A stretch of DNA of 64,000 nucleotides from Ianthella basta (lineage: Eukaryota; Porifera; Demospongiae; Verongiida; Ianthellidae): assembly GCA_964019415.1 (NCBI GenBank), contig CAXHTE010000043.1, forward strand, positions 26,001 through 90,000, read 5' to 3'. Position numbers and translations under genes: made by a program. Every line of letters begins with the position of its first letter. Positions within the stretch are counted from its first letter, which is position 1. This document shows, in pieces, positions 7,907 through 52,805 of this stretch. The notes under the pieces are model-generated. The model searched no databases. It was not told the DNA's origin and was given only the letters and a program-made list of their open reading frames with translations.

Positions 7907-8077
7907 TTCTTGTTGAGCTACAAAAAGCTGACCTGATTTCCGGCAGAGAGTGTAAGAGGATAGGTGTCATCAGTGATGTGCTTTATTATCAGAGTGACAA
8001 GTCTCCTAAAGTATTGATCGGAACAGCAGACATTCTAAAAAGGCATGGGCATTCTAAGGAATCTAGTCTCCTTTCAG
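7907..8077 (+). CDS. CARD-like module exon, copy 3
   Basis: This 171 bp phase 1-1 exon lies between tctcctctccccacag and ctttcag|gtaaac. It encodes (V)LVELQKADLISGRECKRI, then VLYYQSDKSPK, TADILKRHG and SSLLS(G), the same hydrophobic skeleton as the other copies. It is intermediate in divergence between copy 2 and copies 4 to 7. The surrounding introns share the unit backbone with the 9-34 kb tandem units. It is probably part of one long gene with the GTPase exon at 39.7 kb, because phase 1 can join to that exon. Function as a homotypic protein-interaction module is inferred. Confidence 0.72.
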
Positions 8078-12800: not shown

Positions 12801-13417
12801 GTATGTCTGGTTCTTGTTGTAGTCCCTATCTTATTCATTGGCTGAAGGAATGTGAACTCATTTGTTTGTGTGGTGATTGGTGTGTATTTACATGTGTGTT
12901 TATTGTAATTCCCTACCTTGTGTATGCTTAAGTGTGTGATTATCTGTGTTCTTAATCTTGTCTGGTGATAGAATATATATACTTCTTCTGTATGTAGTTT
13001 GTGCGTTATATTATACTGTGCTGTATGAGTGTTGTGTTGTGCTATGTTGTGTAATGTTCTGTAGTGTTCTGTTGTGTTGTGTGAATGCGAAGATGTGTGT
13101 CTGAGTGCAGGATTAGAACATGATCACTGTGACACCTGTCCTGCAAGACCGTCTTGCTCTATCAGAAAACCATTACAACTTCACTGTCCTAACTGTAATG
13201 TAATGTCTGTTTCTTCCCTTGTCTGTGTGCGTGTGATGTAGTGTGTCCCTCCTCATCTTCTGTTTGTTCGCCCTTGACTTACTAGCCCCTCATGAGCCAT
13301 CTATGAGCATGCTTCACTCCTGAGGAGCTGTGTACACTTGTGTGGGGTAACTGTATTCTCTATCTTGTGTTGTAATATGTGACTGTCCTCCCTGTCATTT
13401 TCTCCTTTCACCCACAG

Positions 13418-13588
13418 TTCTTGCTGAGCTACAGCAGGCCAACCTGATTTCCAGACTAGATTGTACAAGGGTGAAGAACATCAGTCGTGTGCTTGGGGTT
13501 CAGAGAGGCAAGTCTCCTCAGGAACAGAGCAAAACTGCTGATATTCTGAGGAAACATGATTGGGACAAGGAGGCTAGTCTCCTTTCAG
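13418..13588 (+). CDS. CARD-like module exon, copy 4
   Basis: This 171 bp phase 1-1 exon lies between ctcctttcacccacag and ctttcag|gtaaac. It encodes (V)LAELQQANLISRLDCTRVK, then VLGVQRGKSPQ, TADILRKHD and ASLLS(G). The core hydrophobics of the CARD-like fold are kept. It differs from copy 5 at ten residues, mostly in two clusters (about residues 13-21 and 27-31), with a single synonymous change, while adjacent introns are much closer. It shares the RLDCTRVK block with copy 7. The role is inferred to be homotypic signalling or ligand/partner discrimination. Confidence 0.75.
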
Positions 13589-14144
13589 GTAAACAAACGT
13601 AGCCCTCGTCCATCTTCCTTCTGTTACATTACGTTGTACGTATCCTAGTTGTAACAGCCATGCACTTTAAAGGCAATGGAATGCACTTTAGACAAGGTGA
13701 TTCAGCTGCTAATTAGATGCACATCGATCCGCACTTTCACACTTGTATTTAATTTCCCAGACAGTGGCCCATTGTGTGAATTACACTACATGTTGACAAG
13801 GTGTACATGATGCTATACCTATAGTATTAATTGACTTTGGATCTTTGAACAACTATGCCCATCTTGTTTCACACGAATGATTATCTTGGTTTCAGCTCAT
13901 TTGCCTTCCATTGTTAACTTGTCTTCAGATTGGCCGTGATTCTTAGTTGACAACTTGGTGCTAATTACTCACAAGGCACGTTTGTATATGTGAAGCCAAC
14001 TAATGATTGCTTTCACACTGGTGTGAACATGCTTAAAAGTAATGGTCTGGATTTATGTGAACATGCTGTAATGAGTTACTTGCTGTGAAGCACTTGTTTG
14101 CATGTGGTGCCGCCCCCTGAACGGCTTGGTCTTTGTTTCAGTTT

Positions 14145-16430
14145 ATTAGTGTACTAGCAGGGCGCCCGCCTTCGGCGGGCTTCTGCTTCGGCGGGCTTCT
14201 GCTTCGGCGAGTCACACGACAGCGAGTTGGGCCCAGGCTGATTTGAAGAATCTGCGCTGTTAGCAACTGAGGGCAGCTGCTATAACGACGGCCGAGTTTA
14301 AATTCGATTGTGGGACAGCGAATCAATCCGCCCGATAACCGGAAGTCAATGAGCGATAATTAATAAAATGGCCGTCAGCCGCGAACGAAAACCGGAAATC
14401 AATGGATATCTCTTCAGGAACTGCAGGACGGGCGATTTCAACCCGTGTAGGACACTTCTGAGCCGAACTTTATGATCCCTGAGAGTTTGGAGGCGTTTTG
14501 TTCCGTACATTTTGCGCCAAAAGCGAACAAACAAACAAGACAAACGAACTGAATTATTGGGGCGAGCCTGAGCGAGCCCCTTCCCTTACGAGTAGTACGG
14601 TGGCTCTGTCTGTCTGGTACGTAGGTCCGTTTGGAACAAGGAGGGAAGTTTCTGCGTAATATTTTGGTCGGGATCTGCGGAACATTTTGCCCAGGGGCCT
14701 GCAGCGCGCATTAGGTGTACTAGCAGAGAAGGGCGCCTTCAGCGCCCTCCTTTGCTCTGGCGCCCAACGCAGGTGCTTCCGATGCCAGTGCTTCTGATGC
14801 AAAGCACTTCCAAACCTGGCTACTGAGTGATAGCTATAGACGCTGCAGTTGCAGTTAGCTATAGAGTTGCACGCAGCTGACTCCTCTTCCACCACAAATC
14901 ACCAAGGTCAAGCGTCTTGTATTGCCCTCCAAATTAAACAGAACTGACTCATGATGGCCCCTTTGAGCTGATTCCTGGTTGTCCTCTTGAGTTGACTCCT
15001 GGTTGGTTCTTTGAGCTGACTCCCCTCGAGCTGGCTCCTGCTATTCCCCTGGTGCTGACTCCTGTGAGTGAAGGTTGAGTGATGGTCTTAGAGTTCTGAC
15101 AGTTGTCGTCGGTTCCTAAGAGCTCTCATGCATCCCTGAATGTCTTGACTTCTTGGTTAGTCCGGTGTAGCCCTTAATGTTGCATATGCGCACTGCAACG
15201 GTTGCAAATGGCTTTGTTTGGAAGAAACGTATTACGATGACGTCATGAGATCATTGCGCAAGCCTAACCCCCGCATAACTTGTACCCATCCTTGCGCCAT
15301 CGAGCCGCTTTCACTCGCGTAAGACGGCGCTTTCCGCTATATAGCTTATATCACCCACAGCCTTCTACATTGTGCTAAAACTATAGCAAAGAAGCCGTCG
15401 CACCATCTTCCCAGGAGGAGTTGTGTAACAAAGGAATTCGCTGTGAATTCCGTAGTCTACTTCGCTTTCCTCCGTAAAACAAAAATGGCGTCCTATAGTA
15501 ACGTATGGCGAGTTGGCGCAAAACCTTCATTTCGCAAGCTTTCGCAGGGAAACCCAGCCGAAGACACCCTCCGGATGGTGCTTCGACATTCGGACCGCGT
15601 TTTCTGCGAACCCTCCGCACGGTTCCCGAGATTAGTGCGGACAAAAAAATCGGCCTAGCTCCATTATAATAAGAAGCGTATACACCGTTCAGTCCGTATG
15701 CCAATGGGATTTATACTAGCCATTTTGCATGTTATAAGCATTGTGGTCTCACTATTATGCATATCATTATCCCTGCACTGGGACCCAAGCCACACAATGG
15801 AGAGACAATACAATGTGAGTGTCGCGACCTATTAGGCACTGCATGCTACAGCTATGGATCGCACCACGGGCAATTCTACCAACCGTAGACTGTCAGACTT
15901 GACCAAGGGCAGAGAGGAGAGACTACGCATGAGGAGATAAAACGGGCGCGGCGTGCCTCAGAAACACCAGAACAGACGGAAGAATGGTGCCGAGTGCGGA
16001 GAGAGCGCGACAGGGCCTGGCAGGCTGCCCAGAGCACGGACGTCGCGAGAATTTCTCCTTAGGTCAGCGCACAGTGGAATACACGTACGAGGGTAGCTGC
16101 ACAAGAGGAAACAGAACCAGGCAACAGAGGAAGGCAGCCAAGCTGACCCAGTTGGTAGAAGCAAGAGTGCACAGAAGAGACAGCACAAGAGAACAGCCTG
16201 CATACTGTTTAATGCATGCATCACTTAAACAGTTAGCGCGTGACGCTTCTTCAGGCTCGCCCGATAATGCTTTGCATTCACTAGTATACATAGATACATG
16301 TATTTGTCTGAATAGAGAGCCCAGCCTTTATTTCTTAAAGAATTTTCATCCTCCCTCGTCTGGGACAGACTTCTATTTAGGAACTGGTGCTAAAGTACCT
16401 GAACCCTAACCACGTTTCTTATATATACAG
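14145..16430. mobile_element. composite transposon insertion (unit 1)
   Basis: This GC-richer block interrupts the unit backbone. An inner element runs 14553-16268 between inverted ends attattggggcgagcctga and tcaggctcgcccgataat. The same terminus bounds an element at 44.5-45.7 kb. Near 15900-16030 one frame reads RARRASETPEQTEEWCR, resembling the basic ETPEQ-type motifs found in some eukaryotic transposon proteins, but no intact protein remains. To its left, 14145-14552 starts with a gtgtactagcag motif that also occurs at 14714, suggesting nesting. Confidence 0.7.
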
Positions 16431-16651
16431 CATCTGTTGTTGATGCCACACATGGCTGCCCGTTGAATGCTATGACCATTCTGTCACAGCCATGAAAGAT
16501 GGCCAATTCATATTAGTCTTGGGTGCCATGTCTGTTTTTGATCTGCATTATGCTGTCCAGTGGCCAGTCCAGTGGCCATGGAATAGCCTGTGCTATGCAT
16601 GTACCTGGCTGTTGCCACAGCATCGCAAACAACACCTAAATGTGTGCTGCT

Positions 16652-16652
<1 letters not shown>

Positions 16653-16750
<98 letters not shown>

Positions 16751-16835
16751 ATGCATCTGTGTGCATGCGTGTGCGCGTGCATTTGTGTGTATGTGCGTGT
16801 GTGTGTATATGTGTGTGTATGCGTGTGTGTGTCTA
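16653..16835. repeat. (GT)n microsatellite, imperfect 3' part
   Basis: A GT tract followed by GT/GC/AT steps, next to tgtgtgctgctg. It recurs at 23968 and 30245 with different lengths in units 2 and 3. Confidence 0.95.
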
Positions 16836-19452
16836 CAACCGCCTCTGTATGTCACGCACGAAGATCCCCTTGTATCACCAACCAGCCCAGACACATGCTA
16901 TTCCCATACCTGCTACACCATGCAGTCACATGCATGCAGCGAATGTTAATGATCTGGGTTTTGCATGGACAGGCTGGCCCTCCTCTTTGCATCGACCAGC
17001 CCTCCTCCTGCATGGTTCCTACGGTTTTTCTGCCAGGTGGTTTGCCATGCCCTTCAGAGACACACTGCACCATCTCTACATCTGCCCTTGTTTTTGGAGG
17101 AAACATTTTTACACACCCTTGTTGCTATATGTGTGTGTCTGAATAGAGGCCTGGACTTCTATTTGTTTCCAAGGAGTTTTGACCCAGCCATCCATTCTGC
17201 GTAGGGAATTCTCTCTCATGCAAGTCTTCTAGCCAGTCCAGCCTGGTGCATCATTTGCCAGTGGTACATTAAAATGGCCACTGTCTTTTATGCTCTAACT
17301 AATAGACTAACTAAATTGTATTGTCTAATTGTCACGGAGGAATCATTTAGCCATTACGTTAGGTAAGTAGGAGGTCTATGGGTACCTCTCAGTCTTTATT
17401 GAACAACAGATATAACATTGTTCTACTGAACCTTGTACAGATATGAAAATACCAGCAGCAAGTGATTGCACAGCACCACAGTCCTGGCAGTTTAATTACT
17501 TATTGTGCCATGTGGAGTCCATTCCATACTCATACAGTATGAGTGCCATTCCATCGTGTAAACATATCACACTCTGTCAGATAAAGAGTAATAGATGATT
17601 ATTCTATTACCGATCTTCACTAGCCAAATCAGTGGAATAATCTGCCAAAGGTTTCAACAACCATGCGGTTGTCTTCATCAGTGACTATAGTACAAAACAG
17701 AAGGTGATTTGCTACAATGTGGGGGAAAGATGGTGATGCAGAGTGTGAGTGACTGCAAAATGGCAGATAGTGAGTAAACTGTCATGACAGATGAAAGGAA
17801 CAGATGACAGGTGACAAGTAAATCTAAAAGTGTATTTGAACAGACATAAGTGAGGCATGCAAGTAAAGCCAAGTTGTATAACAGTGAAATAATGAATTGT
17901 AAACTGAGGGTGATGTGCCATCGTTTCTGTTCAAAGTGTGAGACTGTGATCTAATGTGAATTGATTCTAAAGTGAGTCTCTGGTGTAGACGGGAGTAATA
18001 GATGGACTGTGGTTCTCTGCAGCATGTACCTATGGGCAGTCCATGCTGCATTCCTATTCTTATTACTTGGAATATGGCTTCTGCTGAGTCATACCATCCA
18101 TACATGTTTCAACAAGAATAGGAGTGTTACAATGGACGACTATTGTGAGATGTAGCCATGTATAGAATGTGGACTTAAATTTTCCGATGTAGTCTCTAAC
18201 CATATCTAAGGCATTCAGTGATTCTCTGAGCAGGACAACACTCCACTTCACAAGCTTGAAGACTTGTGACATTTCTGGATTGTTAGAGTATATATAAACC
18301 ATGGCTTCTTCTGTGAAGGAGCTCTAGTGTCAGCATGCTCAGATAATGTAGATACTATGACACAACTCGTCACAATTCAACTGACATTTATACCATCATT
18401 CTAAACAAATGTGTACTTGAATTCCTCTTCTGCATTTAATTAAGGTGAACATCCCACTGTTAGTCTCTCTGCCATGTGAATCTTGACAGACAAGAGCTGA
18501 ATTTATATGGTTATCTGCGCAGCATGTCTTAAAGGCATTACTTCTACCCTTTGAGAGACTCTACACATTCCCCTTGTATAGCCATTTTTCTATTTATGCG
18601 TTCCCTACCTACCTTACTGTGCCATGATCCTTTGATCACTTCACATGATGGTTAAACATGCAAAGGAAACCTGATCACAGTCAGTTTGTGGGGTGGGATC
18701 CTGCTGAGTGGCCCAACTGTACAGCTGTGATATGAATTCTTTCCACAATGATATGGCTGATGGAAATAGTTGACTCTGCAGGAAGTTGCACATTAGTTCC
18801 TAACCACTGAAACATTGTTATGAGTTCATTTCAAATATTAAGTCTCTATAGGTGTTCCTGTTCAGCAGCCCTAAATATTACCAGGATGTTGATGGTGTAG
18901 TAGATTACATGCATGCTGCAGGCCCTGTAGCAAGGTGTCAGCTGTAAGGTAGCAAGTGCTGACATGACGCAAGGCTAACTTGTGATGTATCTGTGTAATC
19001 CAGCGCAATGGGTATTGAGTAGTGACAGCATTGTTGAGACCATGCATATGCATGCACTCTTCCACTTCCACCATGCATGCTCACTTCCGTTGACAGTAGG
19101 TGAGAGACCATGCTGTAAATTGTTTGTCCTCAAGTGAGGCAGAACGTGAGGTCCTCGGGCTGCAGCAACAGGCAGATCCTAGTCATCATCAAGGCATGAT
19201 TCCTATTATCTTGATAGTCCCTGAGATGTACCTCACCACCACTCTTTGGAATAGCAACAATAGAGGAGCCTAGTCTGTGTTGGAAGCTCATTCTCAACTC
19301 TTCTAGCCAGTCCAGTCTTGTAGCCTCTTGTACCCAGTCCTATCTATTGGAGGAAAAGGACTGGCATGTACTGTATGTGATAGCTCTGCAGTGTGGTTAC
19401 TAATCACCCAGTGAGCATGTGTAACTTCACATGTGGATTTTGTTGATGCGCA

Positions 19453-19511
19453 ATCTCATTGGTTGACGCAAACTGCTATGTGACGTCATAGCAATCTGTA
19501 ATCTTGATTGG
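19453..19511 (+). promoter_or_regulatory. CCAAT-CRE-CCAAT block (unit 2)
   Basis: TGACGTCA at 19481 is flanked by ATTGG on both sides, in the same layout as unit 1. Consensus match only. Confidence 0.38.
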
Positions 19512-20729
19512 GTTCCACTGTGGGCTACAACTGACTTAGATGACTCAATGTGTTGCAATGTGCCAGGGCTGTTTTGTCCATATGATAACTATAAGGCTGG
19601 TGTGCATCAGTGAAGCCACCACATGATTCCTTTCTCACTAATAGTGCACTGATCTAGCTAGGTTGAAGTCCCATCCAATGCACTGTAGAGCTCGAGCGTG
19701 ACCAGACTATAATGAGGCCATTATTACTGTGCTTTGGTAGGAGACTGTCTGTTCAAAGCTCCATACCCTAACATGCTAGCCATTTCAACTGCAGTATATT
19801 TACCAGAAGTCCAAATATTTAGGCTTGGAGTTAATATCCACAGCCCAAGCAATGGCAGCACTGCCAGCACTGCACCTTTATGTATATTTATTGGCACTTG
19901 CTGTGACTTGTCTCTTGGCCAGTGTACGACTGTTTATAATTATCCTTTGAGCCTTGTTATCATGACTGCTCTGAGACATCTTAGTCACATCTATCATTAA
20001 ATGGTATTTGGATGTAGGAGCCTTTCAGGTAGGGCAGGTTCAACTGTAATTACTATGCATATGTGTAGCTAAAGGAATGTGTGTGTGTGTGTGCGTGCGT
20101 GCGTGTACATGTATGTCTGGTTCTTGTTGTAGTCCCTATCTTATTCATTGGTTGAAGGAATGTGAACTCATTTGTTTGTGTGGTGATTGGTGTGTATGTA
20201 CATGTGTGTGTTTATTGTATTTCCCTACCTTGTGTATGCTTAAGTGTGTGATTATCTGTGTTCTTAATCTTGTCTGGTGATAGAATAATTATACTTCTTC
20301 TGTACGTAGTTTGTGCGTTATATTATACTGTGCTGTATGAGTGTTGTGTTGTGCTATGGTGTGTAATGTTCTGTAGTGTTCTGTTGCGTTGTGTGAATGC
20401 GAAGATGTGTGTCTGAGTGCAGGATTAGAACATGATCACTGTGACACCTGTCCTGCAAGACCGTCTTGCTCTATCAGAAAACCATTACAACTTCACTGTC
20501 CTAACTGTAATGTAATGTCTGTTTCTTCCCTTGTCTGTGTGCGTGTGATGTAGTGTGTCCCTCCTCATCTTCTGTTTGTTCGCCCTTGACTTACTAGCCC
20601 CTCATGAGCCATCTATGAGCACACTTCACTCCTGAGGAGCTGTGTACACTTGTGTGAGGTAACTGTATTCTCTATCTTGTGTTGTAATATGTGACTGTCC
20701 TCCCTGTCATTTTATCCTTTCACCCACAG

Positions 20730-20900
20730 TTCTAGCTGAGCTACAGCAGGCCAACCTGATTTCCAGTTATGATTGTGAATATGTGAAGGACATCAGTCGT
20801 GTGCTTGAAGTTCAGAGTGACAAGTCTCCTCAGGAACAGAGCAAAGCTGCTGATATTCTGAGGAAACATGAATGGGACAAGGAGGCTAGTCTCCTTTCAG
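20730..20900 (+). CDS. CARD-like module exon, copy 5
   Basis: A 171 bp phase 1-1 exon with a tcctttcacccacag acceptor and a ctttcag|gtaaac donor. The protein reads (V)LAELQQANLISSYDCEYVK, then VLEVQSDKSPQ, ADILRKHE and ASLLS(G). Relative to copy 4, codons 13, 14, 17, 18, 21, 27, 30, 31, 40 and 48 change the amino acid, several through two or three base changes in one codon. Only codon 2 changes silently. The hydrophobic core is untouched. The pattern suggests selection for altered surface residues. Confidence 0.75.
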
Positions 20901-21460
20901 GTAAACAGACATAGCCCTCGTCCATCTTCCTTCTGTTACATTATGTTGTACGTATCCTAGTTGTAACAGCCATGCAGTTTAAAGGCATTGGAATGCACTT
21001 TAGACAAGGTGATTCAGCTGCTAATTAGATGCACGTCGATCCGCACTTTCACACTTGTATTTAATTTCCCAGACAGTGGCCCATTGTGTGAATTACACTA
21101 CATGTTGACAAGATGTACATGATGCTGTACCTATAGTAGTAATTGACTTTGGATCTTTGAACAACTTTGCACACCTTGTTTCACATGAATGACTATCTTG
21201 GTTTCAGCTCATTTGCCTTCCATTGTTAACTTGTCTTCAGATTGGCCGTGATTCTTAGTTGACAACTTGGTGCTAATTACTCACAAGGCACGTTTGTATA
21301 TGTGAAGCCAACTAATGATTGCTTTCACACTGGTGTGATCATGCTTAAAAGTAATGGTCTGGATTTATGTGAACATGCTGTAATGAGTTACTTGCTGTGA
21401 AGCACTTGTTTGCATGTGGTGCCGCCCCCTAAACGGCTTGGTCTTTGTTTCAGTTTATTA

Positions 21461-23705
21461 GTGTACTAGCAGGGCGCCCGCCTTCGGCGGGCTTCTGCTT
21501 CGGCGAGTCACACGACAGCGAGTTGGGCCCAGGCTGATTTGAAGAATCTGCGCTGTTAGCAACTGAGGGCAGCTGCTATAACGACGGCCGAGTTTAAATT
21601 CGATTGTGGGACAGCGAATGAATCCGCCCGATAACCGGAAGTCAATGAGCGATAATTAATAAAATGGCCGTCAGCCGCGAACGAAAACCGGAAATCAATG
21701 GATATCTCTTCAGGAACTGCAGGACGGGCGATTTCAACCCGTGTAGGACACTTCTGAGCCGCACTTTATGATCCCTGAGAGTTTGGAGGCGTTTTGTTCC
21801 GTACATTTTGCGCCAAAAGCGAACAAACAAACAAGACAAACGAACTGAATTATTGGGGCGAGCCTGAGCGAGCCCCTTCCCTTACGAGACGTACGGTGGC
21901 TCTGTCTGTCTGGTACGTAGGTCCGTTTGGAACAAGGAGGGAAGTTTCTGCGTAATATTTTGGTCGGGATCTGCGGAACATTTTGCCCAGGGGCCTCCAG
22001 CGCGCATTAGGTGTACTAGCAGAGAAGGGCGCCTTCAGCGCCCTCCTTTGCTCTGGCGCCCAACGCAGGTGCTTCCGATGCCAGTGCTTCTGATGCAAAG
22101 CACTTCCAAACCTGGCTACTGAGTGATAGCTATAGACGCTGCAGTTGCAGTTAGCTATAGAGTTGCACGCAGCTGACTCCTCTTCCACCACAAATCACCA
22201 AGGTCAAGCGTCTTGTATTGCCCTCCAAATTAAACAGAACTGACTCATGATGGCCCCTTTGAGCTGATTCCTGGTTGTCCTCTTGAGTTGACTCCTGGTT
22301 GGTTCTTTGAGCTGACTCCCCTCGAGCTGGCTCCTGCTATTCCCCTGGTGCTGACTCCTGTGAGTGAAGGTTGAGTGATGGTCTTAGAGTTCTGACAGTT
22401 GTCGTCGGTTCCTAAGAGCTCTCATGCATCCCTGAATGTCTTGACTTCTTGGTTAGTCCGGTGTAGCCCTTAATGTTGCATATGCGCACTGCAACGGTTG
22501 CAAATGGCTTTGTTTGGAAGAAACGTATTACGATGACGTCATGAGATCATTGCGCAAGCCTAACCCCCGCATAACTTGTACCCATCCTTGCGCCATCGAG
22601 CCGCTTTCACTCGCGTAAGACGGCACTTTCCTCTATATAGCTTATATCACCCACAGCCTTCTACATTGTGCTAAAACTATAGCAAAGAAGCCGTCGCACC
22701 ATCTTCCCAGGAGGAGTTGTGTAACAAAGGAATTCGCTGTGAATTCCGTAGTCTACTTCGCTTTCCTCCGTAAAACAAAAATGGCCTCCTATAGTAACGT
22801 ATGGCGAGTTGGCGCAAAACCTTCATTTCGCAAGCTTTCGCAGGGAAACCCAGCCGAAGACACCCTCCGGATGGTGCTTCGACATTCGGACCGCGTTTTC
22901 TGCGAACCCTCCGCACGGTTCCCGAGATTAGTGCGGACAAAAAAATCGGCCTAGCTCCATTATAATAAGAAGCGTATACACCGTTCAGTCCGTATGCCAA
23001 TGGGATTTATACTAGCCATTTTGCATGTTATAAGCATTGTGGTCTCACTATTATGCATATCATTATACCTGCACTAGGACCCAAGCCACACAATGGAGAG
23101 ACAATACAATGTGAGTGTCGCGACCTATTAGGCACTGCATGCTACAGCTATGGATCGCACCACGGGCAATTCTACCAACCGTAGACTGTCAGACTTGACC
23201 AAGGACAGAGAGGAGAGACTACGCATGAGGAGATAAAACGGGCGCGGCGTGCCTCAGAAACACCAGAACAGACGGAAGAATGGTGCCGAGTGCGGAGAGA
23301 GCGCGACAGGGCCTGGCAGGCTGCCCAGAGCACGGACGTCGCGAGAATTTCTCCTTAGGTCAGCGCACAGTGGAATACACGTACGAGGGTAGCTGCACAA
23401 GAGGAAACAGAACCAGGCAACAGAGGAAGGCAGCCAAGCTGACCCAGTTGGTAGAAGCAAGAGTGCACAGAAGAGACAGCACAAGAGAACAGCCTGCATA
23501 CTGTTTAATGCATGCATCACTTAAACAGTTAGCGCGTGACGCTTCTTCAGGCTCGCCCGACAATGCTTTGCATTCACTAGTATACATAGATACATGTATT
23601 TGTCTGAATAGAGAGCCCAGCCTTTATTTCTTAAAGAATTTTCATCCTCCCTCGCCTGGGACAGACTTCTATTTAGGAACTGGTGCTAAAGTACCTGAAC
23701 CCTAA
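21461..23705. mobile_element. composite transposon insertion (unit 2 copy)
   Basis: This is the duplicate of the unit 1 insertion, with the TIR element at about 21849-23564. It is nearly identical to the unit 1 copy, so it was copied with the unit and did not insert again. Confidence 0.7.
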
Positions 23706-23966
23706 CCACGTTTCTTATATAGGTATGCATGTAACATATATACAACATCTGTTATTGATGCCACACATGGCTGCCCGTTGAATGCTATGACCATTCAGTC
23801 ACAGCCATGAAAGATGGCCAATTCATATTAGTCTTGGGTGCCATGTCTGTTTTTGATCTGCATTATGCTGTCCAGTGGCCAGTCCAGTGGCCATGGAATA
23901 GCCTGTGCTATGCATGTACCTGGCTGTTGCCACAGCATCGCAAACAATACCTAAATGTGTGCTGCT

Positions 23967-23967
<1 letters not shown>

Positions 23968-24024
<57 letters not shown>

Positions 24025-24115
24025 TGTGAGTGTGTGTGTGTGTGTGCATGCGTGTGCGCGTGCATTTGTGTGTATGTGCGTGTGTGTGTATATGTGTGTG
24101 TATGCGTGTGTGTGT
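23968..24115. repeat. (GT)n microsatellite, imperfect 3' part
   Basis: Orthologous to 16653-16835, with a different repeat count. Confidence 0.95.
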
Positions 24116-26671
24116 CTACAACCACCTCTGTATGTCACGCATGAAGATCCCCTTGTATCACCAACCAGCCCAGACACATGCTATTCCCATACCTACTACA
24201 CCATGCAGTCACATGCATGCAGCGAATGTTAATGATCTGGGTTTTGCATGGACAGGCTGGCCCTCCTCTTTGCATCGACCAGCCCTCCTCCTGCATGGTT
24301 CCTACGGTTTTTCTGCCAGGTGGTTTGCCATGCCATTCAGAGACACACTGCACCATCTCTACATCTGCCCTTGTTTTTGGAGGAAACATTTTTACACACC
24401 CTTGTTGCTATATGTGTGTGTCTGAATATAGGCCTGGACTTCTATTTGTTTCCAAGGAGTTTTGACCCAGCCATCCATTCTGCGTAGGGAATTCTCTCTC
24501 ATGCAAGTCTTCTAGCCAGTCCAGCCTGGTGCATCATTTGCCAGTGGTACATTAAAATGGCCACTGTCTTTTATGCTCTAACTAATAGACTAACTAAATT
24601 GTATTGTCTAATTGTCACGGAGGAATCATTTAGCCATTACGTTAGGTAAGTAGGAGGTCTATGGGTACCTCTCAGTCTTTATTGAACAACAGATATAACA
24701 TTGTTCTACTGAACCTTGTACAGATATGAAAATACCAGCAGCAAGTGATTGCACAGCACCACAGTCCTGGCAGTTTAATTACTTATTGTGCCATGTGGAG
24801 TCCATTCCATACTCATACAGTATGAGTGCCATTCCATCGTGAAAACATATCACACTCTGTCAGCTAGAGAGTAATAGATGATTATTCTATTACCGATCTT
24901 CACTAGCCAAATCAGTGGAATAATCTGCCAAAGGTTTCAACAACCATGCAGTTGTCTTCATCAGTGACTATAGTACAAAACAGAAGGTGATTTGCTACAA
25001 TGTGGGGGAAAGATGGTGATGCAGAGTGTGAGTGACTGCAAAATGGCAGATAGTGAGTAAACTGTCATGACAGATGAAAGGAACAGATGACAGGTGACAA
25101 GTAAATCTAAAAGTGTATTTGAACAGACATAAGTGAGGCATGCAAGTAAAGCCGAGTTGTATAACAGTGAAATAATGAATTGTAAACTGAGGGTGATGTG
25201 CCATCATTTCTGTTCAAAGTGTGAGACTGTGATCTAATGTGAATTGATTCTAAAGTGAGTCTCTGGTGTAGTCAGGAGTAATAGATGGACTGTGGTTCTC
25301 TGCAGCATGTACCTATGGGCAGTCCATGATGCATTCCTATTCCTATTACTTGGAATATGGCTTCTGCTGAGTCATACCATCCATACATGTTTCAACAAGA
25401 ATAGGAGTGTAGTCTCTAACCATATCTAAGGCATTCAGTGATTCTCTGAGCAGGACAACACTCCACGTCACAAGCTTGAAGACTTGTGACATTTCTGGAT
25501 TGTTAGAGTATATATAAACCATGGCTTCTTCTGTGAAGGAGCTCTAGTGTCAGCATGCTCAGATAATGTAGATACTATGACACAACTCGTCACAATTCAA
25601 CTGACATTTATACCATCATTCTAAACAAATGTGTACTTGAATTCCTCTTCTGCATTTAATTAAGGTGAACATCCCACTGTTAGTCTCTCTGCCATGTGAA
25701 TCTTGACAGACAAGAGCTGAATTTATATGGTTATCTGCGCAGCATGTCTTAAAGGCATTACTTCTACCCTTTGAGAGACTCTACACATTCCCCTTGTATA
25801 GCCATTTTTCTATTTATGCGTTCCCTACCTACCTTACTGTGCCATGATCCTTTGATCACTTCACATGATGGTTAAACATGCAAGGGAAACCTGATCACAG
25901 TCAGTTTGTGGGGTGGGATCCTGCTGAGTGGCCCAACTGTACAGCTGTGATATGAATTCTTTCCACAATGATATGGCTGATGGAAATAGTTGACTCTGCA
26001 GGAAGTTGCACATTAGTTCCTAACCACTGAAACATTGTGATGAGTTCATTTCAAATATTAAGTCTCTATAGGTGTTCCTGTTCAGCAGCCCTAAATATTA
26101 CCAGGATGTTGATGGTGTAGTAGATTACATGCATGCTGCAGGCCCTGTAGCAAGGTGTCAGCTGTAAGGTAGCAAGTGCTGACATGACGCAAGGCTAACT
26201 TGTGATGTATCTGTGTAATCCAGCGCAATGGGTATTGAGTAGTGACAGCATTGTTGAGACCATGCATATGCATGCACTCTTCCACTTCCACCATGCATGC
26301 TCACTTCCGTTGACAGTAGGTGAGAGACCATGCTGTAAATTGTTTGTCCTCAAGTGAGGCAGAACGTGAGGTCCTCGGGCTGCAGCAACAGGCAGATCCT
26401 AGTCATCATCAAGGCATGATTCCTATTATCTTGATAGTCCCTGAGATGTACCTCACCACCACTCTTTGGAATAGCAACAATAGAGGAGCCTAGTCTGTGT
26501 TGGAAGCTCATTCTCAACTCTTCTAGCCAGTCCAGTCTTGTAGCCTCTTGTACCCAGTCCTATCTATTGGAGGAAAAGGACTGGCATGTACTGTATGTGA
26601 TAGCTCTGCAGTGTGGTTACTAATCACCCAGTGAGCATGTGTAACTTCACATGTGGATTTTGTTGATGCGC

Positions 26672-26730
26672 AATCTCATTGGTTGACGCAAACTGCTATG
26701 TGACGTCATAGCAATCTGTAATCTTGATTG
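26672..26730 (+). promoter_or_regulatory. CCAAT-CRE-CCAAT block (unit 3)
   Basis: TGACGTCA at 26701, with ATTGG on both sides. Consensus match only. The unit 4 version (32469) has one change in the CRE (TGACATCA); the unit 5 version (36794) is intact. Confidence 0.38.
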
Positions 26731-27984
26731 GGTTCCACTGTGGGCTACAACTGACTTAGATGACTCAATGTGTTGCAATGTGCCAGGGCTGTTTTGTCCA
26801 TATGATAACTATAAGGCTGGTGTGCATCAGTGAAGCCACCACATGATTCCTTTCTCACTGATAGTGCACTGATCTAGCTAGGTTGAAGTCCCATCCAATG
26901 CACTGTAGAGCTCGAGCGTGACCAGACTATAATGAGGCCATTATTACTGTGCTTTGGTAGGAGACTGTCTGTTCAAAGCTCCATACCCTAACATGCTAGC
27001 CATTTCAACTGCAGTATATTTACCAGAAGTCCAAATATTTAGGCTTGGAGTTAATATCCACAGCCCAAGCAATGGCAGCACTGCCAGCACTGCACCTTTA
27101 TGTATATTTATTGGCACTTGCTGTGACTTGTCTCTTGGCCAGTGTACGACTGTTTATAATTATCCTTTGAGCCTTGTTATCATGACTGCTCTGAGACATC
27201 TTAGTCACATCTATCATTAAATGGTATTTGGATGTAGGAGCCTTTCAGGTAGGGCAGGTTCAACTGTAAGGGGTTGTAATTACTGTAATTACTATGCATA
27301 TGTGTAGCTAAAGGAATGTGTGTGTGTGTGTGCGTGCATGCGTGCGTGCGTGCGTGCGTGTACATGTATGTCTGGTTCTTGTTGTAGTCCCTATCTTATT
27401 CATTGGTTGAAGGAATGTGAACTCATTTGTTTGTGTGGTGATTGGTGTGTATGTACATGTGTGTGTTTATTGTATTTCCCTACCTTGTGTATGCTTAAGT
27501 GTGTGATTATCTGTGTTCTTAATCTTGTCTGGTGATAGAATAATTATACTTCTTCTGTATGTAGTTTGTGCGTTATATTATACTGTGCTGTATGAGTGTT
27601 GTGTTGTGCTATGTTGTGTAATGTTCTGTAGTGTTCTGTTGCGTTGTGTGAATGCGAAGATGTGTGTCTGAGTGCAGGATTAGAACATGATCACTGTGAC
27701 ACCTGTCCTGCTAGACCGTCTTGCTCTATCAGAAAACCATTACAACTTCACTGTCCTAACTGTAATGTAATGTCTGTTTCTTCCCCTGTCTGTGTGCGTG
27801 TGATGTAGTGTGTCCCTCCACATCTTCTGTTTGTTCGCCCTTGACTTACTAGCCCCTCATGAGCCATCTATGAGCACGCTTCACTCCTGAGGAGCTGTGT
27901 ACACTTGTGTGAGGTAACTGTATTCTCTATCTTGTGTTGTAATATGTGACTGTCCTCCCTGTCATTTTCTCCTTTCACCCACAG

Positions 27985-28155
27985 TTCTTGCTGAGCTACA
28001 GCAGGCCAACCTGATTTCCAGATATGATTGTGAATGGGTGAAGGACATCAGTCGTGTGCTTAAAGTTCAGAGAAGCAAGTCTCATCAGGTACAGAGCAAA
28101 ACTGCTGATATTCTGAGGAAACATGAATGGGACAAGGAGGCTAGTCTCCTTTCAG
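27985..28155 (+). CDS. CARD-like module exon, copy 6
   Basis: A 171 bp phase 1-1 exon with the same splice sites as copy 5. The protein reads (V)LAELQQANLISRYDCEWVK, then VLKVQRSKSHQ, TADILRKHE and ASLLS(G). Compared with copy 5 there are eight amino-acid changes (codons 13, 18, 27, 30, 31, 34, 36, 40) and one silent change. Codon 27 flips charge (Glu to Lys) and codon 18 goes Tyr to Trp. Flanking introns are clearly more alike than the exons. Confidence 0.75.
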
Positions 28156-28726
28156 GTAAACAGACATAGCCCTCATCCATCTTCCTTCTGTTACATTACA
28201 TTGTACGTATCCTAGTTGTAACAGCCATGCACTTTAAAGGCAATGGAATGCACTTTAGACAAGGTGATTCAGCTGCTAATTAGATGCACGTCGATCCGCA
28301 CTTTCACACTTGTATTTAATTTCCCAGACAGTGGCCCATTGTGTGAATTACACTACATGTTGACAAGGTGTACATGATGCTGTACCTATAGTAGTAATTG
28401 ACTTTGGATCTTTGAACAACTATGCCCACCTTGTTTCACATGAATGACTATCTTGGTTTCAGCTCATTTGCCTTCCATTGTTAACTTGTCTTCAGATTGG
28501 CCGTGATTCTTATTTGACAACTTGGTGCTAATTACTCACAAGGCACATTTGTATATGTGAAGCCAACTAATGATTGCTTTCACACTGGTGTGAACATGCT
28601 TAAAAGTAATGGTCTGGATTTATGTGAACATGCTGTAATGAGTTACTTGCTGTGAAGCACTTGTTTGCATGTGGTGCCGCCCCCTAAACGGCTTGGTCTT
28701 TGTTTCAGTTTATTAGTGTACTGGCA

Positions 28727-30000
28727 GGGCGCCCGCCTTCGGCGGGCTTCTGCTTCGGCGAGTCACACGACAGCGAGTTGGGCCCAGGCTGATTTGAAGA
28801 ATCTGCGCTGTTAGCAACGGAGGGCAGCTGCTATAACGACGGCCGAGTTTAAATTCGATTGTGGGACGATAGCGAATGAATCCGCCCGATAACCGGAAGT
28901 CAATGAGCGATAATTAATAAAATGGCCGTCAGCCGCGAACGAAAACCGGAAATCAATGGATATCTCTTCAGGAACTGCAGGACGGGCGATTTCAACCCGT
29001 GTAGGAACTTCTGAGCCGCACTTTATAATCCCTGAGAGTTTGGAGGCGTTCTGTTCCGTACATTTTGCGCCAAAAGCGAACAAACAAACAGACAAACGAA
29101 CTGAATTATTGGGGCGAGCCTGAGCGAGCCCCTTCCCTTACGAGTAGTACGGTGGCTCTGTCTGTCTGGTACGTAGGTCCGTTTGGAACAAGGAGGGAAG
29201 TTTCTGCGTAATATTTTGGTCGGGATCTGCGGAACATTTGCCCAGGGGCCTGCAGCGCGCATTGGGTGTTAGCGTATACACCGTTCAGTCCGTATGCCAA
29301 TGGGATTTATACTAGCCATTTTGCATGTTATAAGCATTGTGGTCTCACTATTATGAATATCATTATACCTGCACTGGGACCCAAGCCACACAATGGAGAG
29401 ACAATACAATGAGTCAACCTATTAGGCACTGCATGCTACAGCTATGGATCGCACCACGGGCAATTCTACCGACCGTAGACTGTCAGACTTGACCAAGGGC
29501 AGAGAGGAGAGACTACGCAGGAGGAGATAGAACGGATGCGGCGTGCCTCAGAAACGCCAGAACAGACGGAAGAATGGTGCCGAGTGCGGAGAGAGCGCAA
29601 CAGGGCCAGGCAGGCTGCCCAGAGCACGGACGTCGCGAGAATTTCTCCTTAGGTCGGCGCACAGTGGAATACACGTACGAGGGTAGCTGCACAAGAGGAA
29701 ACAGAACCAGGCAACAGAGGAAGGCAGCCAAGCTGACCCAGTTGGTGGAAGCAAGAGTGCACAGAAGAGACAGCACAAGAGAACAGTCTGCATACTGTTT
29801 AATGCATGCATCACTTAAACAGTTACCACGTGACGCTTCTTCAGGCTCGCCCGACCATGCCTTGCATTCACTAGTATACATAGATACATGTATTTGTCTG
29901 AATAGAGAGCCCATCCTTTATTTCTTAAAGAATTTTCATCCTCCCTCGCCTGGGACAGACTTCTATTTAGGAACTGGTGCTAAAGTACCTGAACCCTAGC
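28727..30000. mobile_element. composite transposon insertion, internally deleted (unit 3)
   Basis: It matches the unit 1 and 2 insertions, but sequence corresponding to about 14717-15675 is missing, with the junction near 29268. The inner TIR ends are at about 29105 and 29858. Confidence 0.7.
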
Positions 30001-30243
30001 CATGTTTCTTACATATATACAGCATCTGTTGTTGATGCCACACATGGCTGCCCGTTGAATGCTATGACCATTCTGTCACAGCCATGAAAGATGGCCAATT
30101 CATATTAGTCTTGGGTGCCATGTCTGTTTTTGATCTGCATTATGCTGTCCAGTGGCCAGTCCAGTGGCCATGGAATAGCCTGTGCTATGCATGTACCTGG
30201 CTGTTGCCACAGCATCGCAAACAATACCTAAATGTGTGCTGCT

Positions 30244-30244
<1 letters not shown>

Positions 30245-30304
<60 letters not shown>

Positions 30305-30351
30305 GTGTGCGTGCGTCTGTGTGCATGCATGTGCGCGTGCATGTGTGTGTA

Positions 30352-30382
<31 letters not shown>

Positions 30383-30386
30383 GTGT
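30245..30386. repeat. (GT)n microsatellite, imperfect 3' part
   Basis: Orthologous to the tracts at 16653 and 23968. Confidence 0.95.
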
Positions 30387-30714
30387 CTACAACCACCTCT
30401 GTATGTCACGCACGAAGATCCCTTTGTATCACCAACCAGCCCAGACACATGCTATTCCCATACCTGCTACACCATGCAGCCACATGCATGCAGCGAATGT
30501 TAATGATCTGGGTTTTGCATGGACAGGCTGGCCCTCCTCTTTGCATGGACCGGCCCTCCTCCTGGTTCCTACGGTTTTTCTGCCAGGTGGCTTGTCATGC
30601 CCTTCAGAGACACACTGCACCATCTCTACATCTGCCCTTGTTTTTGGAGGAAACATTTTTACACACCCTTGTTGCTATATGTGTGTGTCTGAATAGAGGC
30701 CTGGACTTCTATTT

Positions 30715-33700
30715 GTTTCCAAGGAGTTTTGACCCAGCCATCCATTCTGCGTAGGGAATTCTCTCTCATGCAAGTCTTCTAGCCAGTCCAGCCTGGTGCA
30801 TCATTTGCCAGTGGTACATTAAAATGGCCGCTGTCTTTTATGCTCTAACTAATAGACTAGCTAAATTGTATTGTCTAATTGTCACGGAGGAATCATTTAG
30901 CCATTACGTTAGGTAAGTAGGAGGTCTATGGGTACCTCTCAGTCTTTATTGAACAACAGATAATTTATAACATTGTTCTACTGAACCTTGTACAGATATG
31001 AAAATACCAGCAGCAAGTGATTGCACAGCACCACAGTCCTGGCAGTTTAATTACTTATTGTGCCATGTGGAGTCCATTCCATATACATACAGTATGAGTG
31101 CCATTCCATCGTGAAAATAAATAATACTCTGTCAGCTAGATAGTAATAGATGATTATTCTATTACCGATCTTCACTAGCCAAATCAGTGGAATAATCTGC
31201 CAAAGGCTTCAACAACCATGCAGTTGTCTTCATCAGTGACTATAGTACAAAACAGAAGGTGAATATTCGCTACAATGTGGGGGAAAGATGGAGATGCAGA
31301 GTGTGAGTGACTGCAAAATGGCAGATAGTGAGTAAACTGTCATGACAGATGAAAGGAACAGATGACAGGTGACAAGTAAATCTAAAAGGGTATTTGGACA
31401 GAAATAAGTGAGGCATGCAAGTAAAGCCGAGTTGTATAACAGTGAAATAATGAATTGTAAACTGAGGGTGATGTGCCTTCGTTTCTGTTCAAAGTGTGAG
31501 ACTGTGATCTAATGTGAATTGATTCTGAAGTGAGTCTCTGGTGTAGACGGGAGTAATAGATGGACTGTGGTTCCCTAGAGCATGTACCTTTGGGCAGTCC
31601 ATGATGCATTCCTATTCCTATTACTTGGAATATGGCTTCTGCTGAGTCATACCATCCATACATGTTTCAACAAGAATAGGAGTGTTACAATGGACAACTA
31701 TTGTGAGATGTAGCCATGTATAGAATGTGGACTTAAATTTTCCAATGTAGTCTCTAACCATCTCTAAGGCATTCAGTGATTCTCTGAGCAGGACAACACT
31801 CCACGTCACAAGCTTGGAGACTTGTGACATTTCTGGATTGTTAGAGTATATATAAACCGTGGCTTCTTCTGTGAAGGAGCTCTAGTGTCAGCATGCTCAG
31901 ATAATGTAGATACTATGACACAACTCGTCACAATTCAACTGACATTTATACCATCATTCTAAACAAATGTGTACTTGAACTCCTCTTCTGCATTTAATTA
32001 AGTTGAACATCCCACTGTTAGTCTCTCTGCCAAGTGAATGTTGACAGACAAGAACTGAATTTCTAAGGGTATCTGCGCAGCATGTCTTAAAAGCTTCCAC
32101 TGTAGCTGAGCGATCATGCTTGTAAATTGTTTGTCCTCAAGTGAGGCAGAACGTGAGGTCCTCTCTTAAGTCATCATCAAGGCATGATTTATTTTTACTT
32201 GATAGTCCCTGAGATGTACCTCACCACCACCCTTTGGAATAGCAACAATGGAGGAGCCTGGTCTGTGTTGGAAGCTCATTCTCAACTCTTCTAGCCAGTC
32301 CAGTCTTGTAGCCTTTTGTACCCAGTCCTATCTATTCGAGGAAAAGGACTGGCATGTACTGTATGTGATAGCTCTGCAGTGTGGTTACTAATCACCCAGT
32401 GAGCATGTGTAACTTCACTTGTGGATTTTGCTGATGCGCAATCTCATTGGTTGACACAAATTGCTATGTGACATCATAGCAATCTGTAATCTGATTGGGT
32501 TGCACTGTGGGCTACAACTGACACACCTCAATATATTGCAATGTGCCAGGGCTGTTTTGTCCATATGATAACTATAAGGCTGGTGTGCATCAGTGAAGCC
32601 ACCACATGATTCCTTTCTCACTAATAGTGCACTGATCTAGCTAGGTTGAAGTCACTTCCAATGCACTGTAGAGCTCGAGCGTGACCAGGCTGTAATGAGG
32701 CCATTATTACTGTGCTTTGGTAGGAGACTGTCTGTGCAAAGCTCCATACCCTAACATGCTAGCCATTTGAACTGCAATATATTTACCAGAAGTCCAAAGA
32801 TGTAGGCTTGGAGTTAATATCCATAGCCCCAGCAATGGCAGCACTGCCAGCACTGCACCTTTATGTATATTTATTGGCACTTGCTGTGACTTGTCTCTTG
32901 GCCAGTGTATGACAGTCGCTGTTTTAATTATCCTTTGAACCTAGTTATCATGACTGCTCTGAAACATCTATCATTAAATGGTATTTGGGTGTAGGAGCCT
33001 TTCAGGTAGAGCAGGTTCGACTGTAAATATTGTGTGTAAAAGAATATATTGTGTATGTGGCAATTGTGCATGCATGTCTGGTTCTTGTTGTAGTCCCTGT
33101 CTTATTCGTTGGTTCACCAAATGTTCACTCTATTGTTTGTGTTGTGATTGGTATGTATTTTCATGCACGTGTTTATTGTAATTCCCTACCCTGTGTATGC
33201 TTAAGTGTGTGGATATCTTTCTTCTTAATCTTGTCTGGTGGTATAAAATAATAATGGATTTTACTTCTTCTATAATCATGTAGTTTGTGTAACAGTAGTG
33301 TTGTATGAGTGTTGTGTTGTGCAATGTTGTGTACTGTTCTGTTGTGTTGTGTGAGTGCAAACATGTGTGTCTGAGTGTCTGAGTGGCACCTGTCCTGCTA
33401 GACCCTCTTGCTCTATCAGATAATCATTATAACTTCACCGTCCTGCTTCCTCCCTGTCTGTGTGTGTATGTCCCTCCTCATATTCTGTTTATTCACTCTT
33501 GGCTTACTAGCCCCTCATGAGCCATCTATGAGCACGCTTCACTCCTGAGGAGCTGTGTACACTTGTGTGGGGTAACCTATTCTTTATCTTGTGTTGTAAT
33601 ATGTGACTGCCCTCTTTGTCATTTTCTCCTTTCACCCACAGTTCTTGCTGAGCTACGGCAAGCCAACCTGATTTCCAGACTAGATTGTACAAGGGTGAAG

Positions 33701-34396
33701 GACATCAGTGTTGTGCTTGAAGTTCAGAGAGGCAAGTCTTCTCAGGTACAGAGCAAAACTGCTGATATTCTGAGGAGTCAAGGATGGGACAAGGAGGCTG
33801 GTCTCCTTTCAGGTAAACAGACATAGCCTTCATCCATCTTCCTTCTGTTACATTACGTTGTATGTATCCTAGTTGTAACAGCCATGCACTTTAAAGGCAA
33901 TGGAATGCACTTTAGACAAGGTGATTCAGCTGCTAATTGGATGCACATCGATCCACACTGTTTTGAATTTCCCAGACAGTGGCCCATTGTGTGAATTACA
34001 CTACCTGTTGACAAGGTGTATGTGATGCACCTAATGCTATGACCATTCTGTCACAGCCATGAAAGTTAGCCTAATCCTCTTAGTCTTTGTGACTTTGTAC
34101 GTAGGTCATTATGCACCTTCTCAGGTTGCTGTCTACATTATGGCAACTGCATAAAGTAGTTCCTAACGATGTCTGTTGCATACATTTCCATGGTCATAGT
34201 GAGTGAGTACCAGAATCACCCATACTGCTACTTGGTGTAAAGCACATGTTTCCATACAGTGCCACCCACTGAACTATTGCCAAAGTCTGAAATGTGCCAG
34301 TTTGATCAGCACTTAGTCCTAATAACGATGCACCATTTGTATTATAATTATGATTAGATTTAATTGCTATATATGTGTATCTGAATAGAGACTGGG
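30715..34396 (+). repeat. tandem unit 4 of the CARD-exon array (about 3.7 kb)
   Basis: The backbone matches units 1 to 3 but is more diverged. It lacks the composite transposon, the GT tracts and some backbone (the join is near 34035, gatgcacctaatgctatgac). Either the transposon entered after this unit split off, or it was deleted here. Confidence 0.85.
33642..33812 (+). CDS. CARD-like module exon, copy 7
   Basis: A 171 bp phase 1-1 exon with the shared acceptor and donor. The protein reads (V)LAELRQANLISRLDCTRVK, then VLEVQRGKSSQ, TADILRSQG and AGLLS(G). It combines the RLDCTRVK block of copy 4 with the QVQSKT block of copy 6, a mosaic that suggests exchange between copies. It is the last intact module before the GTPase exon. 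Its phase 1 end fits that exon's phase 1 start, giving a Gly or Ala codon at the joint depending on the exon used. Confidence 0.75.
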
Positions 34397-39744: not shown

Positions 39745-41885
39745 CACCTCAGAAACCACCATCATGGCTACCTGACTATGAGGAGGCAGTGGCGAAGCAA
39801 GGATCCGTAGACGTCACTATCAATCGTAACATTTTCATAGGCCCCTCTGCCGTAGGCAAATCCTGCTTGAAGCACTTACTGGTGCACAACAAACCCAAAG
39901 AAGTCAAGGTCAGCACACCTGTCATGGCAAAGCCGGAAGTTGTCTCCATTTCGGCAGAGAAGTATGCAGTTGAAGGAACCTCAGTATGGCTGCCACTTTC
40001 TGATGAGAAGATGGCCTGCTCTATCAGGTCATCCTGCCTCAGCCGCCAGTACCACGTCACTGAAACAAAACCAAAGGCTCCTCCAGAAGACCACCATGTC
40101 AAGCCTTTGCAACCAGTGAAGAAAAGTGATCCACCAGCTGTTGCTAGTAAAATCCCGTCTCGTACTTCACGTGAAGAAGTCAGTCCTACAGCAGGAAATT
40201 CAGTCCTTCCCATACCTTCTGCTCCTTCTACCGCCCAATCCGTGTTTCGCAAAGCACACTCAAGCCTCATGCATGACCTTGATGCAGGTCTACAGGAAGA
40301 ATTGCGACTGAATGGCGCCAGGTTTGTCCACTTGCTTGACACAGGTGGTCAACCAAGCTTTCAAGATGTCCTTCCCCTGTTGTTGGACATCCCATGCACT
40401 TACGTTCATGTCTTCAATGCAGCCATGGACCTCGATCAGCCAGTACCTATCACATACCGACCAAATGCATCCACAGAGGTGGAAATATTGGCAAGTTCTG
40501 AGACAGTTTGGGGAATGACACTGCGATCCCTTTCCAGTGTCCAGACCTTGGCATACAAGGTATCCAGCAATGCGGGTGCATTACCCATGAATATCCAATT
40601 TCCGACGTTCCGCACAGTTCTAGTTGGCACATTCAAAGATCAGTTAGTGAAGAAGGGCATTACCGCAGCAGCAACTGCTAAAATTTCCAAGCAAATCGAG
40701 CTGCTTGAGAAGAAGCCATATTATTCCCACATAGTCCCCAATTGCAAAGGTGAGCTGTTCTTCCTTGTGAACAATATGCAGCATGGTGAACCCTCACAGC
40801 GCACTCAAGAAGATCAGGAAAGCATCGATGATCTCCGTGTAGTCCTTTCCCACTCCGATGGTGCCCTGAAAACCAAGATACCCATAGGATGGTTTCACTT
40901 TGAAATGGTTGCCCGAAAGGTTTCTCAGAAGTTCTTCCCATTTGCTGAGCTATTGGAGCATGCCCGTGAGTTGAAGTGTGTAAGCTCAGCCAACCCAAGT
41001 CGCGAATTCCGTAGCCTTCTACAACTGTTTCACTCCCTTGGAGTCTTCACTTTTGTTGATCACACTGATGTCCCCAACACAGTCTGCACAGACAGCAGCG
41101 TGTTCCTACAGGAAGTGTCAAAGCTCCTTGCAATACAGTTCATTGAGATTCCAAAGTGCATGGCAGCTAAGACATTTAAGAAGACAGGCATCCTTGCCTT
41201 GGATGAAGGCCTTTTCAATGAACTGGGCATCCTCAAGGAGGTGGACCCAGTGTGGCTACTACGCTGCCTTTGCTACCTTGGTGTAACAGCCTGCATATCA
41301 CCGCCTGGTGCTACTACAGTTTATTATTTCATGCCAGCAGCTCTTCCTGCAGAAGTTTCACTAGCATCTGCAACTGGCAGTGTGGCTCCACTGCTAGTGG
41401 CATTCACATTTGAAGAGAATTTCTTTGTCTCAACCGACGATCTTCCGCGCGGCATCTTCACTCGCCTAGCAGTGGAACTAGCCAACAAGAAGGAATGGAT
41501 CTTGACCCAAGGAAAGAACAGTCATTTCACTATAATGTTTCAATGGAAGAAACTGCACATTTGTGTGGTTGAATCTTCTGGATTCATCAGTATTGTCCCC
41601 AGGGTCTCCAATAATGCAAGATGCAGTTCAGCCGAACTGCATGAATACTGCAGAGCAATTCGGTCTACATTCGAAGCAGCAATCCAAGCATCTGCCCAAG
41701 CAGTATTCGGTTCCAAGTTCACCGATAAAGCATCTGCCATTTACGGCTTCAATTGCCCCTGTAAGATCAGCCCTACCCACTTGGCTGTCAAACGTGAGGA
41801 CAGCATTGCCTGTAACATTTCATTTGATTTTCAAACATATTCGAAAAGCCAAAAAGTGTGGTTCTGTCCAGTTGAAGGAGTAGAG
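39745..41885 (+). CDS. Roc-COR-like P-loop GTPase exon
   Basis: A single 2141 bp exon from acceptor cttgttcgttacag (phase 1) to donor gtagag|gtgagt (phase 0), 713 codons. A Walker A/G1 motif GPSAVGKS lies at residues about 32-39, a G3 motif DTGGQ at about 198, and a G4-like GTFKDQ at about 295, as in Roc GTPases. Between G1 and G3 is a Pro/Ser/Lys-rich insertion of roughly 110 residues. The second half is COR-like: WFHFEMVARK, a winged-helix stretch LLQLFHSLGVFTFVD, FLQEVSKLLAIQF, then a region ending in CPCKIS and KVWF. It probably acts as a GTP-regulated signalling switch in the cytoplasm. No LRR or kinase is seen in the window. Confidence 0.85.
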
Positions 41886-42116
41886 GTGAGTGTGCTGCAC
41901 ATGTACGCAAATTGAACTTTGAGTAGACCTCTTTGAATTGACAAATTAACCTAAGACACAGAATACCTATGATAATCACTACTGTGAATGTAGAGATCGG
42001 GCTGTCATTTATACTGTGCCTAAAGTGGAGGAGCTGTGCCTTCAAGCAGTAATACTATGCATACTGTTAAAACGATGACTAAATCATTGTCTCTTCATGC
42101 TTCCTTCATCGTCTAG

Positions 42117-52741: not shown

Positions 52742-52805
52742 AGCCTTTACTGCCTTGCACGTAGGATCTTGAACTTGCTGTTATTAGCTGACAATTGTGA
52801 CTCTA

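Follow-up and report, generated by a model that had tools for sequence, protein, structure and literature searches.

Tandem module exons upstream of a Roco-like GTPase exon in the sponge Ianthella basta: diverged exons within more uniform introns

The locus and its gene family

The window analyzed here is a stretch of 64,000 nucleotides of the Ianthella basta genome (C52:26001-90000), and positions are counted from its first nucleotide. It contains six complete module exons, all of them 171 bp long, on the plus strand, bordered by AG/GT splice sites and in phase 1-1 (Table 1). Four are close copies of one another (type D, W1 to W4), and the exons at 4698 and 7907 are two diverged ones. The type D exons were found where the original prediction had placed them. 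Introns in the window are 4-7 kb long, and the GTPase exon starts about 5.9 kb 3' of W4. The best explanation is that a gene family of an early-branching animal was duplicated in tandem and that the window carries the 3' portion of one of its genes.

Table 1. Features of the module array and the GTPase exon (window coordinates)
Feature	Position	Strand	Remark
Partial module	1417..1491	+	last 25 residues only; probably decayed; found with tblastn
Type G module exon	4698..4868	+	171 bp, phase 1-1; little between-locus variation
Type C module exon	7907..8077	+	171 bp, phase 1-1
Type D module exon, W1	13418..13588	+	
Type D module exon, W2	20730..20900	+	
Type D module exon, W3	27985..28155	+	
Type D module exon, W4	33642..33812	+	intron lineage differs from W1-W3
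Tandem unit 1	12880..20191	+	about 7.3 kb, one module exon
Tandem unit 2	20192..27446	+	
Tandem unit 3	27447..33150	+	shorter; second half more diverged from units 1 and 2
Roco-like GTPase exon	39745..41915	+	single large exon (2.2 kb), acceptor phase 1; from ORF

The module comprises 57 residues with five predicted helices and has a weak resemblance to the death fold. This resemblance is what remains of the earlier designation "CARD-like", as none of 47 modules matched CARD or another death-fold family of Pfam at E ≤ 1. The best Pfam match of any kind among them was UBA_ARI1 (E 0.0065), and no family exceeded the cut-off. The best hit of a PDB profile search had an E value of 0.14 and was unrelated, the Foldseek fold comparison yielded no match at E ≤ 0.001, and LRR did not match the helical module.

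The large downstream exon encodes a P-loop (GPSAVGKS) and the motifs DTGGQ and GTFKD. Three of four GTPase members had Pfam matches below the cut-off, to Roc with an E value of 0.07 and to Ras with E values of 0.013-0.06, and the motifs together with these weak scores point to a Ras/Roc-like protein. NACHT and NB-ARC, which would characterize an NLR, had no match in the four members at E ≤ 1. Window-type GTPases were also absent from the 41 COR-A matches of the genome at E ≤ 0.1, as well as from the Roc matches listed, and the AF2 model of the window-type GTPase had a pLDDT of 30.5. Four of the 41 COR-A matches (C4:11785469, C20:2517523, C6:2690210, and C16:4515710) follow a module array at a distance of 8-20 kb on its 3' side and share its strand, with scores of 22.0-27.8 bits and thus below the cut-off of 35.3; therefore, Roco-like genes other than that of the window may likewise be fed by module arrays. 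At C5:2074001-2083700, an ankyrin-like frame instead of modules was seen by eye upstream of a relative of the GTPase (9.7 kb inspected).

The extent of the family was determined by searches of the genome (209 Mb, 96 contigs). The region of the first exon had 22 matches of at least 87% among 40 scored of 79 candidates, namely, 14 on C16, 4 in the window, and 4 on C75. Module peptides matched C4, C6, C16, C20, C21, C52, and C75 (150 scored of 317 candidates), and the GTPase exon yielded 65 matching rows, with five full-length copies on C16. The 2-kb stretch 3' of the GTPase has six more copies on C16, which shows that this contig contains repeats of the entire locus. In the two C16 loci that were fully read, 11 and 15 modules precede the GTPase. 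The order of module types at the 3' end was common to all loci read (G, C, D copies, GTPase), and a type F module precedes G in the loci where it was found.

The closest relative of the window is C16:4284001-4310000, an allele or a paralogue, with 97-98% identity at both ends. Module number differs between these near-identical loci, with three D units in the sister locus and four in the window. The two loci differ at 6 of 57 residues in module G and at 9 of 57 in module C (counted by eye), and W4 differs from its counterpart at one residue. In the introns around G, 32 of 1594 bases differ, and the GTPase exons have 6 nonsynonymously and 7 synonymously changed codons among 723.

It is extremely improbable that the arrays are assembly artefacts or decaying duplicates. 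Judged from match positions, C75 is nearly identical to the reverse of C52, and both contigs have exactly 90,000 bases; furthermore, a one-base insertion breaks the frame of the type D exon C16:4484797. Both observations would fit that explanation, but independent arrays with the matching pattern are present on the contigs C16 and C6, which are of chromosomal size, and open frames and splice sites were found in 49 of 49 extracted modules, a set from which a frameshifted copy was excluded.

Divergence of exons and introns

According to the original prediction, the tandem exons differ nearly exclusively at amino-acid-changing sites, while their introns are nearly identical. The counts of residue changes were exact. 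W1 and W2 differ at 17 of 171 nucleotides, with ten residue changes and one silent change, and W2 and W3 differ at 11, with eight residue changes and one silent change. Codons with changes at several positions, such as CTA to TAT and AGG to TAT, are also real.

Quantification over the full units did not yield uniform results. Between units 1 and 2, 71 of 7030 other aligned bases differ, and the exon has the highest divergence of 41 windows of the comparison. For units 2 and 3 (exon 11/171, rest 192/5453) and units 1 and 3 (exon 14/171, rest 199/5514), divergence is higher than in the exon in some windows, all of them in the unit's second half. The introns flanking W3 and W4 differ by about 24%, showing that the introns of unit 4 have a separate lineage, and the claim of nearly identical introns is therefore limited to three of the four close units. 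In three disjoint close pairs, divergence was 9.9% at nonsynonymous sites, 4.8% at synonymous sites, and 1.7% in introns (nonsynonymous versus intron, p 3e-16; synonymous versus intron, p 0.043; nonsynonymous versus synonymous, p 0.088). In summary, the observation of diverged exons within more uniform introns was confirmed.

The original prediction had used intron divergence as the neutral rate. This was not tenable, as the synonymous sites of the window-type exons also exceed the introns, and as arrays on C6 exhibit the identical contrast without an excess of nonsynonymous changes. There, modules are about 0.9 kb apart, and exons differ at 2-38 of 171 positions within 500-bp flanks that differ by 2-4%. 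The exons at 580413 and 581335 differ at 38 positions (dN 0.26, dS 0.28) and their flanks at 11 of 499, and a set of six C6 exons had an omega of 0.95, and positive selection was not supported (p 0.43). Because dS is about as high as dN within nearly uniform introns, sites of both kinds are older than, or foreign to, the surrounding introns. The exons at 581335 and 582262 differ at 2 of 171 positions within flanks that differ at 15 of 495, which speaks against a model in which exons are only spared, and therefore, exons can also be recent copies. Introns as a neutral clock are ruled out by C6 exons that differ by up to 22% within introns that differ by 2-4%. Given the C6 pattern at an omega of 0.95, much of the contrast between exons and introns results from homogenization of introns, with exons being spared or exchanged. 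The compact arrays C6:577001-585500 and C6:629001-633500 are accompanied by a much larger array region at 0.55-0.89 Mb of the same contig.

Exchange of complete exons and of half-exons was observed on C16. Exon C16:4293878 differs from C16:4023996 at only 1 of 171 positions, but their flanks differ at 41 of 287 and 8 of 119 positions, whereas the flanks of C16:4293878 resemble those of W3 (3/300 and 2/120). The 3' half of exon C16:4297311 is identical to that of C16:4103512 (0/82), and its 5' half is nearer to C16:4220047 (6 versus 13 differences in 89); two lineages are joined inside this exon. In addition, incompatible sites cluster by distance in a PHI-like test (p 5e-4, 2,000 permutations).

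The number of codons with multiple changes was 10 in three disjoint pairs, compared to 3.6 under random placement (p 6e-4), a null model that ignores a concentration of selection on few codons. This excess is the point in favor of targeted mutation of the exons, somatic or in the germline, by a mutator or a diversity-generating element, as had been proposed as one of two explanations. We regard this mechanism as very unlikely. The mix of transitions and transversions shows no significant difference from that of the introns (20/25 versus 56/36, p 0.10), the same variants are found again in other copies and are transferred in blocks, and conserved scaffold codons are interspersed among the variable ones. 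No evidence for targeted mutation was obtained, and the exchange of exons and half-exons was seen instead.

Selection on module codons

Site models for type D were calculated with our own code for 13 distinct exons from 18 copies read. Three of the remaining copies repeat the peptide of another, one exon is identical to another, and one is frameshifted. Branch lengths were taken from M0 and allowed to vary only by a scale; posteriors are naive (NEB). The M0 omega of 2.16 is above 1, as the original prediction had implied. The comparison of M1a and M2a yielded a 2dlnL of 53.2 (p 3e-12), that of M7 and M8 a p of 2e-12, and about a quarter of the codons had an omega of about 11; the result was stronger with a star tree. 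The maximal 2dlnL in neutral simulations was 4.9 without recombination (14 simulations) and 15.9 with recombination, modeled as three independent trees along the exon (26 simulations).

Sites with a posterior above 0.9 are 12-14, 16-18, 24, 27, 31, 36, and 46-48, and the changes are concentrated in the second helix (helix 2) and in a small number of loops. The clusters of variable residues noticed before, 13-21 and 27-36, overlap with these sites, but selection also extends to 46-48.

The results for the other module types were not uniform. The site model was highly significant for type E (p 1.5e-7), and type C had an M0 omega of 1.85 and an M1a/M2a p of 0.036 (4 copies). An omega above 1 was not supported for type G (M0 omega 0.56, p 0.68, 3 copies), type B (p 0.15), and type A (p 0.57). 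The dN/dS values of the GTPase exon in three pairs were 0.50, 0.39, and 0.25, which indicates that this downstream exon is constrained.

Could concerted evolution alone, neutral or nearly so, account for the pattern? Introns would then be converted and differing exons spared, and diversifying selection would be unneeded. The C6 arrays, with the same contrast at dS about equal to dN, and the elevated synonymous divergence of the window-type exons are in agreement with this explanation. However, omega exceeds 1 with strong likelihood support in types D and E, the value for type D lies beyond the simulations with recombination, and the changes gather in one helix and a few loops, so that we consider it unlikely. 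Taken together, the tests support diversifying selection in some module types (D, E, and C, but not B, A, G, or the C6 set), which acts on top of the homogenization of introns.

A proposed receptor and its relation to known systems

One repeat per same-phase exon was found in front of the GTPase, whose acceptor in phase 1 fits the phase 1-1 modules. All 49 extracted modules were in phase 1-1 with lengths that are multiples of three, both of which the extraction script required. From phase, strand, and order, we infer that the modules are joined to each other and to the GTPase. Spliced retrocopies had been considered as a proof of joined modules, and no match bridging two modules or a module and the GTPase was found among 150 scored of 374 candidates. 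A first exon and a promoter were not found in an unsystematic look.

We hypothesized that each gene consists of a same-strand row of phase 1-1 exons, one per module, followed by the GTPase exon. The modules would be joined in one protein, and their surface would bind variable non-self ligands and thereby switch the GTPase. Units might be duplicated, and introns levelled, again and again by gene conversion and unequal exchange. Exons could escape levelling for two reasons: diversity among modules would be maintained by selection, and conversion would not pass across exons that have diverged. New combinations might arise via exon-sized tracts and via breaks inside exons, and the module surfaces would diversify by exchange and selection, while the GTPase would stay constant. 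The system would thus work like a repeat-based non-self receptor. It is fairly probable that the array and the Roco-like GTPase form a tandem gene family of this kind, which may serve in immunity. Instead of binding ligands, the modules could also be (homotypic) signalling domains.

In arthropod Dscam, tandem exon arrays encode Ig domains and are spliced in a mutually exclusive manner. The arrays described here likewise consist of same-phase exons in tandem, which could give variable isoforms. If one exon were chosen per splicing event, the protein would contain one or few modules, and the uniform phase of the 49 extracted exons and a GTPase acceptor that fits any of them are compatible with such a choice, as is the alternative splicing reported for brown-algal ROCO arrays (PMC11378527). 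Nevertheless, this arrangement has a rather low probability, since joint inclusion would keep the frame, all lengths being multiples of three (as required by the script), and since the order of types is conserved across loci, as expected of jointly used repeats.

A further possibility is a cassette system, in which up to about 15 interchangeable death-fold-like exons feed one GTPase. Introns would be levelled by conversion, exons would be passed from unit to unit, locus to locus, and chromosome to chromosome, and each cell or each individual would acquire a set of modules of its own through alternative splicing or somatic exchange. We consider it distinctly unlikely; if true, a sponge-grade animal would possess a combinatorial system of recognition that forms repertoires and arose independently of the algal one.

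For the preferred receptor model, the closest published system is the brown-algal LRR-ROCO family (Teng et al. 2024, PMC11378527), in which 72-bp phase-2 exons encode LRRs. Its arrays are alternatively spliced, the family is expanded, and a role as an immune receptor has been proposed. Common to both systems are one repeat per small same-phase exon, exon shuffling, the array 5' of the GTPase, several positively selected residues, expansion, and the proposal of a role as an immune receptor. The algal proteins contain a ROC-COR GTPase, whereas the sponge GTPase is Roco-like by its motifs. In contrast to the algal arrays, the exons here have 171 bp and phase 1-1, the module has five helices, the host is an animal, the window introns are 4-7 kb long, and introns are strongly homogenized. 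Short listings of the openly accessible literature contained no Roco gene of an animal with exon arrays of this kind.

In reports on fungal NWD/HET-D/E and other NLR repeats (PMC1805685, PMC4986451), WD, ANK, or TPR repeats are described on a NOD-type NTPase. They resemble the sponge modules in that repeats evolve in concert both inside a gene and among genes, that their number varies, and that diversifying selection acts on a few codons of each repeat, which in the fungi are on the binding face; unlike them, the sponge arrays have one exon per module and belong to a Roco-like gene. Large, fast-evolving death-fold families also exist in the sponge Amphimedon, with 1-3 Death-like domains, TRADD-N, and variable C-termini; in contrast to the present case, the accessible part of that report (PMC8195603) mentions no tandem array of module exons 5' of a Roco-like GTPase.

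If the modules are used jointly or by choice, an early animal lineage would have evolved a rapidly diversifying recognition scaffold on a Roco-like GTPase, convergent with that of brown algae but with another kind of module. In addition, the arrays represent a clean natural system to study how exons escape a homogenization that levels introns.

The window has several further features downstream of the GTPase exon. Two similar reading frames are arranged head-to-head at 51839-52780 (minus strand) and 53107-53904 (plus strand); no Pfam family exceeded the cut-off for them, and C16 carries six copies of this stretch. Serine-rich repeats without a Pfam match are present in reading frames at 56721-58505, and the frame 57945-58502 had no relative in PDB. 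An RVT_1 fragment at 47597-48046 (Pfam E 3.7e-14) is probably a LINE remnant. Elsewhere in the genome, nuclear receptors had only 9 matches, in agreement with an early animal branch, and Wnt exons 34, the latter with a cluster at C16:1.99-2.03 Mb that represents a local expansion.
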